64,000 bases of DNA from Bacteroidota bacterium. GTDB lineage: Bacteria > Bacteroidota > Bacteroidia > Cytophagales > UBA9547. A program made the translations under genes and the position numbers. Every line of letters begins with the position of its first letter. The stretch's first letter is position 1. This document shows positions 60,818-64,000 of the stretch, in pieces. The notes under the pieces were generated by a model, which saw nothing but the letters and a program-made list of their open reading frames with translations, was not told the origin of the DNA and searched no databases. The DNA is taken from the NCBI GenBank assembly GCA_004293915.1, contig RDZG01000081.1, forward strand, positions 1 to 64,000. Direction: 5' to 3'.

Positions 60818-60891
60818 GGTTTCGTAGCTCAACTGAATAGAGCACCTGACTACGGATCAGGAGGTTTGGGGTTTGAATCCCTACGAGATCA
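60818..60891 (+). tRNA. tRNA-Arg (anticodon ACG) with an A19-U56 pair
   Basis: Acceptor stem GGTTTCG/CGAGATC (with GU pairs), D-stem GCTC/GAGC, anticodon stem CCTGA/TCAGG with loop CTACGGA and anticodon ACG at 60852-60854, T-stem TGGGG/CCCTA. The D-loop has GA where GG is universal, and the T-loop is TTTGAAT instead of TTCGAAT. The two changes are compensatory: A19 can pair with U56. CCA is not encoded. Its 3' end and terminator are the left junction of a small cassette. Confidence 0.9.
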
Positions 60892-60926
60892 CTAAAAAGC
60901 TGCCATTTGGCAGCTTTTTTTGTATA
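60889..60926 (+). repeat. left direct repeat (attachment-site-like) with tRNA-Arg terminator
   Basis: A 38-bp stretch starting TCACTAAAAAGCTGCCA and ending GCAGCTTTTTTTGTATA. It covers the last two acceptor bases and the discriminator of tRNA-Arg and its terminator hairpin. A second copy with two loop mismatches lies at 63418-63455. It resembles the att repeat left by site-specific integration at a tRNA. Confidence 0.65.
60894..60919 (+). terminator. terminator of tRNA-Arg
   Basis: AAAAAGCTGCC and GGCAGCTTTTT form an 11-bp perfect stem with a 4-base loop. Confidence 0.85.
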
Positions 60927-60944
60927 TTAAAAACTTATAACATT

Positions 60945-61439
60945 ATGGAAAAAATAGATTTTAAAGATTATGAAGCGTCAGTAATGCGAGAAAAATTACT
61001 TTTACACAAATTTTTATTTGAAATATATGAATACTTTTGGGTTACACGAAATGACAGTTTAGAGGTTTTGCATGCTGAAATAGATAATTTTGGCTATGAT
61101 ATAGTAGTTTGTGCAAACAAGCAAACAAAACATATTCAATTAAAAAGTCTTGTATCAGGCGGAACAACTGCTTCATTTAAAATAAATGATAGACTTGAAT
61201 TAAAAACGGGAGGATGTGTTGTAATTCAAGAATACGAGCAAGTCTTATCTGAAATTAAAGTTAAATATCATTTTTTTGATGCAAAAGATTTGTCAAGTTT
61301 CAACAATGCTAAACATACAAAAGCAAATGCAGATGGCGAAAAAAAAATCAGAGAAGGTATAAAAGAAGTCCCAAAAGGAAAATTTATTTCTTTTAAATCA
61401 AGTAAAGAATTTATTGAATTTTTATTCCCTTTAAATTAG
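60945..61439 (+). CDS. PD-(D/E)XK-like protein, first gene of the tRNA-Arg cassette
   Basis: 164 residues from the ATG at 60945; a longer frame would start inside the tRNA and is rejected. The helix-rich opening (YEASVMREKLLLHKFLFEIY) leads to EIDNFGYDIVVCANKQTKHI and QLKSLVSG. The acidic residue followed by hydrophobic strand and QxK is the pattern of PD-(D/E)XK nucleases of the restriction type. It ends overlapping the convergent regulator gene by four bases. Family unknown; possibly a nuclease effector. Confidence 0.55.
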   Translation: MEKIDFKDYEASVMREKLLLHKFLFEIYEYFWVTRNDSLEVLHAEIDNFGYDIVVCANKQTKHIQLKSLVSGGTTASFKINDRLELKTGGCVVIQEYEQVLSEIKVKYHFFDAKDLSSFNNAKHTKANADGEKKIREGIKEVPKGKFISFKSSKEFIEFLFPLN

Positions 61440-61663
61440 TCTTCGATATTTGATTTAAAAAATTCATCCATTTCAATGTTTAATCCTTTGGCTAGTTCAA
61501 ATAAAAAATATGCGGATGGATTGACTTCTCCTCTTTCTACTCTACTTAAAGAATTATAGTCTTTTTGAGTTTTATCTGATAAATCAAAAAGACTATAATT
61601 GTTCTTTTTTCTCAAAAAACGTATACGCTTTCCCAACTTATTTAAGAACTCGTCCTTATTCAT
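61436..61663 (-). CDS. Xre-type helix-turn-helix regulator of the cassette
   Basis: 75 residues from the ATG at 61663; the longer frame upstream is not needed. The HTH_3 fold is visible: LGKRIRFLRKKNNYSLFDLSD, then LSRVERGEVNPSAYFLFELAKGL. It is divergent from the operon at 61779, and a perfect 30-bp palindrome lies between the two, directly before that operon's first ATG. It probably represses the operon and itself. Confidence 0.85.
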   Translation of the reverse strand: MNKDEFLNKLGKRIRFLRKKNNYSLFDLSDKTQKDYNSLSRVERGEVNPSAYFLFELAKGLNIEMDEFFKSNIED

Positions 61664-61778: not shown

Positions 61779-62162
61779 ATGTTTAATACAATTCTCAATA
61801 TCGTAAAAGATAGTTTTAAAGCGGTAGATTTTGAAATTACAAGTGAAATGAATGTAAATGTGCTTCAAAATGAATTCAAAAAAAATTTTGGACTCAGTTT
61901 AAGAATTTATGAAGTAGGTACAGGTTTTGCGCCAGGAACGAAAAAACTATCTGATATAAATCAAGTCCAAACGAATAAAAATGGTTTTTCTATAAAAGCA
62001 ACTTGGAAAATCAAAGATGTTAGTGAAAAATTTTCAAACGTTTATAATTTAAAAGTTAAAGTTGCTGATATTAATGATGAGCACTTAATTCCAAATGATT
62101 TAACACTTGGTGCTGCCGCTAGAGGCGAATATACCAAACCCAAATTAAAATCAGCTAAATGA
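61779..62162 (+). CDS. cassette protein A with LRIY motif (unknown family)
   Basis: 127 residues, unknown. FKKNFGLSLRIYEVG and the ending YNLKVKVADINDEHLIPNDL recur, in the same order and spacing, in the protein at 62745-63071 (FKEVYGGTLRIYDKM; YGIVAKIADSDDKKILDEAL). The two are paralogues. A second long strand-rich insertion is present here. The first ATG lies four bases after the 30-bp palindrome. It is the first gene of the regulated operon. No catalytic motif visible. Confidence 0.6.
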   Translation: MFNTILNIVKDSFKAVDFEITSEMNVNVLQNEFKKNFGLSLRIYEVGTGFAPGTKKLSDINQVQTNKNGFSIKATWKIKDVSEKFSNVYNLKVKVADINDEHLIPNDLTLGAAARGEYTKPKLKSAK

Positions 62163-62273
62163 AAAGGATTTGGAATAATTCTGTTGCTAATAAAAATTAT
62201 AATAATGTTTCAAAAATTTGTAAAAACAAAAGCTTATATCAATAAACAAGATTTTCTTGTAATTTATTAGCGT

Positions 62274-62360
62274 ATGAATTTGAGGAATGATTATCTAAAA
62301 AATGGTATAAAAATCAAAGAGGCTAATAAAGAAAACAAGCATTGTGTAAAAATTATCTAA
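62274..62360 (+). CDS. possible 28-residue peptide
   Basis: A short frame MNLRNDYLKNGIKIKEANKE followed by NKHCVKII. It lies in the 217-base gap between the first two genes of the cassette operon. It is polar and without features; it may be chance. The rest of the gap has no visible element. Confidence 0.2.
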   Translation: MNLRNDYLKNGIKIKEANKENKHCVKII

Positions 62361-62379
62361 AATTTAAAATTAAGTATTT

Positions 62380-62724
62380 ATGTCGGTTTCTAGCTACCTG
62401 AGTTCAATTGCTTCAAAACAAAAAGAAGTAGTAAGTAAAAAAGACCATATTGCAGATTTAAAAATTCAAATTGTTAAAGTTAGAGATGCAAAAACTAAAG
62501 AGTCTGATAATTATACTAAGCTAATTTCAAACGCTAAAGAACAAAAGCAAAAATTTACTCTTCGTGAAAGAAAAGCTAGAGCTATTGCAGCAAGCAATCA
62601 AAAAATAGATGCTTTAAAAATTAAAATTGAGAAATTAAAAGAAGAAATATCTCGCATAAATGATAAAATCATTTTGGACAAGGAATATTTAGCAAAAGCA
62701 AGAAAAATAGAAAAGAAAAAATAA
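62380..62724 (+). CDS. coiled-coil protein of the cassette
   Basis: 114 residues, almost all one long basic coiled coil (IQIVKVRDAKTKESDNYTKL and KIDALKIKIEKLKEEISRI), with no globular domain. It lies between the two LRIY-motif paralogues, 20 bases before the second. Such proteins often hold complexes together. Structural or adaptor role is inferred. Confidence 0.6.
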   Translation: MSVSSYLSSIASKQKEVVSKKDHIADLKIQIVKVRDAKTKESDNYTKLISNAKEQKQKFTLRERKARAIAASNQKIDALKIKIEKLKEEISRINDKIILDKEYLAKARKIEKKK

Positions 62725-62744
62725 TACACTTAAATATAATTAAA

Positions 62745-63071
62745 ATGGCAGCACCAGAATTTTCAATTACACACAACATGAAAGTTGGAACAATTGTAAA
62801 AAACTTTAAAGAAGTGTACGGAGGTACACTCCGTATCTATGATAAAATGAATCATATTGCAGATTCAAATGAACCAATTTCGAAATTTGCAGAAAAAGGA
62901 GTACCTGCTGCGGAAAAGTTTATGGCTGGTCCTGATTTAAAAATTCTGACTTTTAAAAAAAGATTGTTGGATAGCTACGGAATTGTAGCAAAAATTGCAG
63001 ATTCAGATGATAAAAAAATTCTTGATGAGGCATTGACACTTAAAGAAGTGAAATCAAAAAGTGGAAAATAA
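62745..63071 (+). CDS. cassette protein B with LRIY motif (paralogue of 61779-62162)
   Basis: 108 residues starting MAAPEFSITHNMKVGTIVKN. Contains FKEVYGGTLRIYDKMNHIAD and a C-terminal half KILTFKKRLLDSYGIVAKIA. Compared with protein A, both halves align, which suggests two repeated small domains with an LRIY-type strand. I recall similar small proteins in Bacteroides genomes without known function. Its stop overlaps the start of the MazG-like gene by 11 bases, so the two are translationally coupled. Confidence 0.6.
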   Translation: MAAPEFSITHNMKVGTIVKNFKEVYGGTLRIYDKMNHIADSNEPISKFAEKGVPAAEKFMAGPDLKILTFKKRLLDSYGIVAKIADSDDKKILDEALTLKEVKSKSGK

Positions 63072-63393
63072 AGATTCTATAAATAAAATGCTTGAGGCTA
63101 TTGAAGTATTTCATGCTAAAAACGGATTTGATATTCGAACTAAAAACATGAATACTTTACTGTATCGTCAAAACCTATTGATAGAAGAGCTTGGTGAAAT
63201 AAGTCAGTGTATTACAAAAAACACTGGGAATCTAGGTGAAGAGCATGCTGATTTATTTATTTTATTACTAGGCAATTGCATAACTATGGATATTGATATC
63301 TCTGAAGAGGTTTGGAAAAAACTACAAAAAATTGAATCAAGAAGTGGAAAAAATGTATTTGGGTATAATAGAGTATCCGAATGGGGGAAATAA
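63061..63393 (+). CDS. MazG-like nucleotide pyrophosphohydrolase domain protein
   Basis: 110 residues from a GTG that overlaps the preceding stop; an ATG at 63088 is an alternative. The metal-binding signature EELGE (in LLIEELGEISQCI) with the later EEHADLFILLLG matches the EExxE...ExxD pattern of all-alpha NTP pyrophosphatases (MazG/dUTPase-like). Such enzymes lower nucleotide or alarmone pools; some act in phage defence. It is the last gene of the cassette operon, before the right direct repeat. Confidence 0.78.
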   Translation: MENKDSINKMLEAIEVFHAKNGFDIRTKNMNTLLYRQNLLIEELGEISQCITKNTGNLGEEHADLFILLLGNCITMDIDISEEVWKKLQKIESRSGKNVFGYNRVSEWGK

Positions 63394-63476: not shown

Positions 63477-64000
63477 ATGCAAAACCTTCAACTTTTTAAA
63501 TCGGCACAGAAAGCATCACGCAAACTGAGTATATTATCGGTAGATGTTATAAATAATATATTGCTCGAAGTGGCTCAAAAAACCCTTGCATCTATCCCGT
63601 TTTTAGTAGCCGAAAACCAAAAAGATTTGGCTCGAATGGAAAAATCGAATCCAAAATACGATAGACTTTTGCTTTCAGAATCTCGAATAATAAGTATTGC
63701 CGAAGATATAAAAAATGTTGCAAAATTAGATTATCCTGTAGATAAACTATTGGAATCTAAAACATTAGCTAATGGTTTAAAACTCCGAAAAGTGAGTGTT
63801 CCGCTTGGTGTTGTTGGTATTATTTACGAAGCTAGACCAAATGTTACATTCGATTGTTTTTCGTTATGTCTAAAATCAGGCAATGTGGTGGTGCTAAAAG
63901 GCGGCAGCGATGCCGAATTTTCAAATATTGCAATCGTTAAAATTATCCACGAAGTTTTAGTAGAAAATGGATTGGACAAAAATGTCATAACGCTTTTGCC
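63477..64000 (+). CDS. proA: gamma-glutamyl phosphate reductase, N-terminal part
   Basis: 174 codons to the window edge from the ATG at 63477. The sequence LRKVSVPLGVVGIIYEARPN and KSGNVVVLKGGSDAEFSN is diagnostic for ProA, the aldehyde-dehydrogenase-fold enzyme that reduces gamma-glutamyl phosphate to glutamate semialdehyde in proline synthesis. The catalytic cysteine lies beyond the window. It starts 22 bases after the right repeat of the cassette; before integration it probably lay just after the tRNA-Arg terminator. Confidence 0.93.
   Translation, partial: MQNLQLFKSAQKASRKLSILSVDVINNILLEVAQKTLASIPFLVAENQKDLARMEKSNPKYDRLLLSESRIISIAEDIKNVAKLDYPVDKLLESKTLANGLKLRKVSVPLGVVGIIYEARPNVTFDCFSLCLKSGNVVVLKGGSDAEFSNIAIVKIIHEVLVENGLDKNVITLL

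Follow-up and report, generated by a model that had tools for sequence, protein, structure and literature searches.

Two kinds of bacterial ubiquitin-fold protein bear comparison with the locus described here. BilA, from the BilABCD system that also includes E1, E2 and JAB enzymes, has two consecutive ubiquitin-like domains and is ISG15-like (PMC11354881). YukD/EsaB, encoded at the ESAT-6 (type VII) export loci, is a small protein with a ubiquitin fold that is reported not to form covalent conjugates; YukD operons also encode a membrane protein and a Ser/Thr kinase (PMC1779556).

The locus is located in a window of 64,000 nucleotides (contig RDZG01000081.1, positions 1 to 64,000, assembly GCA_004293915.1, Bacteroidota bacterium) and encodes two small proteins, A and B, designated here by their shared LRIY motif. 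Like BilA, LRIY proteins are predicted to contain two tandem ubiquitin-like domains resembling those of ISG15, but they lack the di-glycine tail, and E1, E2 and JAB enzymes were not detected in their vicinity. They resemble YukD/EsaB in their likely mode, that of a non-conjugated ubiquitin-fold protein encoded near a kinase and a membrane protein, and differ from it in having two tandem halves, several paralogues per locus and a basic helical hairpin, and in their occurrence in Bacteroidota. The LRIY proteins are most aptly regarded as a new and so far unnamed variant of the ubiquitin-fold proteins of bacteria, in an undescribed genomic setting. According to the explanation that we prefer, to which about an even chance is given as a whole, A and B belong to two old lineages within one unnamed, mainly Bacteroidota family of tandem ubiquitin-fold adaptors, probably non-conjugated, which would work together with a basic helical-hairpin protein and with partners that can be exchanged, the MazG-like gene of this locus being most likely just adjacent.

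Organization of the Locus

The original prediction had placed four open reading frames in this region, and the ORF list agreed with the coordinates of each. Protein A (127 aa; 61779..62162, + strand) is an A-type member of the family with an N-terminal extension of about 14 residues, and protein B (108 aa; 62745..63071, + strand) is a B-type member composed of two homologous halves, a tandem ubiquitin-like fold being probable for both. The coiled-coil protein that they were said to flank is indeed encoded between them (114 aa; 62380..62724, + strand); it is basic, probably a two-helix hairpin, and a conserved partner of the LRIY family. The fourth gene is a MazG-like ORF (63061..63393, + strand; 110 aa from a GTG start, with an alternative ATG at 63088), an adjacent gene unsupported as a member of the system. 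The distances between genes are 217 bp from A to the coiled coil and 20 bp from the coiled coil to B, and the MazG-like ORF, read from its GTG, shares 11 bases with the end of B. Four genes on the same strand make an operon plausible, although unproven.

The block is bordered by a tRNA-Arg (60818-60892) on one side and by a proA-like gene starting at 63477 on the other, and would represent a minimal core of A, helical hairpin and B sited between tRNA-Arg and proA. The interval between tRNA-Arg and A also contains an uncharacterised ORF of 164 aa (60945-61439, + strand), with relatives at 33-39% identity on 37 plasmids, many of them conjugative; the opposite strand carries a gene for an XRE-type HTH protein (61436-61663, - strand). 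This tRNA-adjacent stretch may be an insertion site. A relative of the same genus (L171) carries a different gene upstream of proA, and the comparison with it showed no clean empty site.

Paralogy of Proteins A and B

The LRIY motif reads FKKNFGLSLRIY in A and FKEVYGGTLRIY in B. When B was used as query against its own genome, A was matched at E = 4.7e-5 with 27% identity over B residues 3-100, and no protein besides A was retrieved. The local alignment of A and B scored 92, the maximum among 2000 shuffles being 56, and it continued across the second half of both proteins. The common FKxxxGxxLRIY motif and the matching second half proposed from the ORF translations are therefore real, and A and B are true paralogues.

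In the phylogenetic tree, protein A was placed inside an A-type clade of 19 rows with support of 100/99, and its best match was an A-type protein (L075, E = 1.7e-33). Protein B was placed beside a B-type protein of Cryomorphaceae (L126) with support of 81/82 on a long branch, a weak placement. With A in a well-supported A-type clade and B grouped, weakly, with the B-types, a recent local duplication giving rise to both genes is unlikely.

Distribution and Forms of the LRIY Family

Profile searches across the class retrieved clear relatives, several of them in tandem pairs. A scan of the genomes of 84,980 species, for which three family members were the source of the patterns, yielded 79 further loci, almost all labelled Bacteroidota; three of them (L075, L123, L134) come from short MAG contigs labelled otherwise or not at all and are possibly mis-binned. 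The patterns were taken from the B-type N-terminus, and the sample of loci is therefore biased to B-types. A first genome scan with B alone gave no match, nor did a viral scan with a 3-row alignment. The phage and plasmid searches produced no credible match, and a phage or plasmid origin of the family was discarded. Weak matches of B within proteins of 600-700 aa were not accepted as family members.

At least two family genes were present in 53 of the 81 loci with a profile hit. When genes were assigned to A-type or B-type by a simple sequence rule, both types occurred together at 40 of 83 loci, 22 of which also encoded the coiled coil. The LRIY domain is also part of larger proteins, in which it is joined to PspC, WG-repeat, leucine-rich-repeat or transmembrane-OmpA modules. 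In several relatives at the level of the order (L175-L177, L179-L181), a lone member is found amid housekeeping genes; genomes with a single member by itself indicate that the joint presence of A, B and the coiled coil is not always required. A row of four consecutive LRIY genes (L174, G738:C279, 301-3341), including a divergent type of about 125-131 aa, was observed on a 3.9 kb contig in a genome of the window's own family.

Neither A nor B had a convincing model match in Pfam, NCBIfam, PADLOC or PHROGs. PADLOC did not match A, B or the MazG-like protein and gave only E = 0.28 for the coiled coil, so that the absence of a known system with A, coiled coil and B is borne out at the level of library models. 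No paper on the family was found in a limited literature search, which is weak evidence of absence. Dozens of Bacteroidota loci, often with several copies each, thus carry a family that none of the four model libraries matches.

Internal Duplication and Predicted Fold

Structure prediction had been proposed for these proteins and was carried out for B. The AlphaFold2 model, based on 50 sequences, had a pLDDT of 84.5 and consisted of two beta-alpha-beta halves. The profiles of the N-terminal and C-terminal halves matched each other at 97% (E = 4.5e-11; 0 of 100 shuffles), and the LRIY proteins are internal duplications.

The best 30 matches of the B model against the PDB with Foldseek were ISG15, linear di-ubiquitin and polyubiquitin chains, at weak E-values (0.013 at best) and full-length TM-scores of about 0.33. 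The first matches of the half-domain model (pLDDT 72) were two bacterial complexes, one Ubl-deubiquitinase and one E1-E2-Ubl, and those that followed were mostly ubiquitin-like domains. The N-terminal half matched a small Ub/SUMO profile with a probability of 55%, above all 100 shuffles; this profile was composed after the fold matches had been seen and therefore counts as supporting evidence only. A sequence search of the PDB matched no ubiquitin-like protein, and the fold claim therefore rests on structure and profile comparison. All fold E-values are weak, but three routes agree; a tandem ubiquitin-like (beta-grasp) fold is probable. Its confirmation would extend the ubiquitin-fold proteins of bacteria by a branch that is tandem and apparently not conjugated. 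Among predicted viral structures, the B model matched uncharacterised proteins of 96 aa, one of them from Erwinia phage Ea35-70 (probability 0.98-0.99, TM-score about 0.5, E about 0.01).

The predicted ISG15-like tandem fold, together with the likeness of the half domain to bacterial Ubl proteins, would be compatible with a Bil-related conjugation system that attaches A or B to target proteins. However, the C-termini are ...KSAK in A and ...KSGK in B, and a di-glycine in the last six residues was found in 0 of 165 family members. No JAB motif was detected among the neighbours of the family. The missing tail and JAB motif therefore argue against conjugation. E1, E2 and JAB were also absent from the surroundings of the window cassette and, in a set of 145 neighbours, from the 25 commonest Pfam families, which were followed by 34 rarer ones. 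With no such tail and none of these enzymes detected there, a Bil-type system was rejected and is regarded as highly improbable.

The preferred explanation, that of non-conjugated adaptors, would have A and B act as non-covalent adaptors or scaffolds, probably unattached to targets. The combination of a helical hairpin, a ubiquitin-fold protein and a kinase also recalls type VII-like secretion, which was considered only as an analogy; neither an FtsK-like ATPase nor ESAT-6/WXG100 proteins are among the same 25 Pfam families.

The Coiled-Coil Partner

The coiled-coil protein of the window has a net charge of +15 and a pI of 10. Its family comprises basic proteins of about 80-114 residues with a conserved SSKASYRK-like turn, about which two helices probably form a hairpin. 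Homologues were found in 42 of 83 loci, mostly on the same strand and near an LRIY gene. Across 390 genomes of the class, the coiled coil was present in four, all of them LRIY-positive. In three of these (the window genome, G572 and G595) it is encoded near LRIY genes; in the fourth (G535), a weaker match is on a contig with a divergent family member and a stronger one is on a short contig without one. The cryomorphacean locus L126 is a bare cassette of B, A and coiled coil, the last with the same N-terminus as that of the window, MSVSSYL.

The original prediction had treated the two paralogues and the coiled coil as a set. The 22 loci with all three genes and the restriction of the coiled coil to LRIY-positive genomes indicate that this core is real and recurrent, and the exclusive presence of the coiled coil in LRIY-positive genomes of the class is the best evidence for the trio as a unit. 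A and B, as modelled, may assemble with the basic helical-hairpin protein into one complex, which would recruit or control exchangeable partners; any purpose in stress response or defence would be conjectural.

The MazG-like Gene

MazG-type NTP pyrophosphohydrolases (PF03819) are the described enzymes closest to the ORF that follows B. The ORF resembles them in its EExxE...ExxD motif (EELGE...EEHAD) and in a borderline Pfam match, but it scored 21.4 bits, below the curated cut-off of 22, had no close relative in the 390 genomes of the class, and is of a type unlinked to LRIY genes elsewhere.

In the original prediction, this enzyme could be activated by a sensor made up of A, B and the coiled coil and would then deplete nucleotides, for instance in phage defence. 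The shared strand, the overlap with B and the MazG metal-binding motif are in line with such an arrangement, and the exchangeable partners of islands elsewhere would allow the recruitment of a local effector. The other LRIY loci speak against it: a sequence search found no MazG-like homologue within 5 kb of any of them, and the MazG motif was absent from their neighbours. No homologue was found in the 390 class genomes at E <= 1e-3, and in 21 other LRIY-positive genomes the PF03819 genes are on different contigs or more than 250 kb away. The score under the Pfam cut-off adds to these objections.

The coupling to B therefore stands as a physical overlap and fails as a conserved link, and the role of effector found no backing in any of these searches. 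MazG as a conserved partner of the family was rejected, and the sensor model is considered improbable, somewhat less so than conjugation. Lone family members exist and co-occurrence with MazG is absent, as would be expected were the four genes not one system, but most other loci are multicopy. The MazG-like gene is most likely a chance neighbour and its overlap with B a local arrangement.

Genomic Neighbourhoods and Partners

The gene clusters found near the family comprise the coiled coil at 40 loci, an ion channel and a Ser/Thr kinase at 32 loci each, an uncharacterised protein of roughly 220 aa at 17 and TerB-like proteins at 15. OmpA (12) and TerB (9) were the commonest Pfam families among the 145 neighbours, followed by KAP NTPase, kinase, ion channel and PvuRts1I/SRA nuclease with four each. 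Most PADLOC matches in these neighbourhoods involved broad models for kinases and KAP proteins; a methyl-directed restriction enzyme was matched as well. The list of partners is descriptive, because co-location was set against random loci for the coiled coil alone. The Ion_trans channel genes (L078, 10081-11781, and similar) and the kinase genes, each at 32 loci, are near Bacteroidales LRIY genes.

The islands appear modular, and the LRIY family is what they have in common. Under the preferred explanation of adaptors with exchangeable partners, those recruited at other loci would include the Ser/Thr kinase, the ion channel, the KAP NTPase, the TerB-like protein and single-pass LRIY-OmpA fusions. 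Should the fold be confirmed, the family would provide a way into the study of gene islands in which kinases, ion channels and KAP NTPases are found together with OmpA anchors. A more far-reaching proposal is an undescribed, widespread signalling or immunity system of Bacteroidota, in which paralogous, non-conjugated tandem ubiquitin-fold proteins would be interchangeable docking modules linking kinases, channels, KAP NTPases and envelope anchors to a helical-hairpin scaffold; we hold this as a tentative suggestion, well short of even odds.

The same neighbourhoods could instead reflect an envelope-linked signalling or stress complex, in which LRIY proteins would connect cytoplasmic kinases, NTPases and ion channels with OmpA proteins that bind peptidoglycan. 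In L095, L106 and L109 an LRIY domain is fused to a protein predicted to cross the membrane once and to end in an OmpA-type motif, which points in this direction, as do the rank of OmpA and TerB among the neighbours and the number of loci with the channel cluster. On the other hand, the topology derives from hydropathy only, the window cassette is not accompanied by an OmpA protein, a kinase or a channel, and some loci likewise lack all three. This possibility is rated as doubtful, clearly above the sensor model and below the adaptor explanation that we prefer.

In the three fusions (L106, 6595-7908; L109, 2458-3756; L095, 2203-3531), the LRIY domain is accompanied by a GKAQNRTALG segment, one predicted TM helix and the OmpA-type C-terminus; a GKAMNRTALG segment was also found in proteins without LRIY (L078, L133). 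Small, very basic proteins of the DKRTKE...KAR type (for example, L138, 6838-7092, and L124, 9381-9545) are encoded near the family in 10 loci and represent a further basic component beyond the coiled coil.
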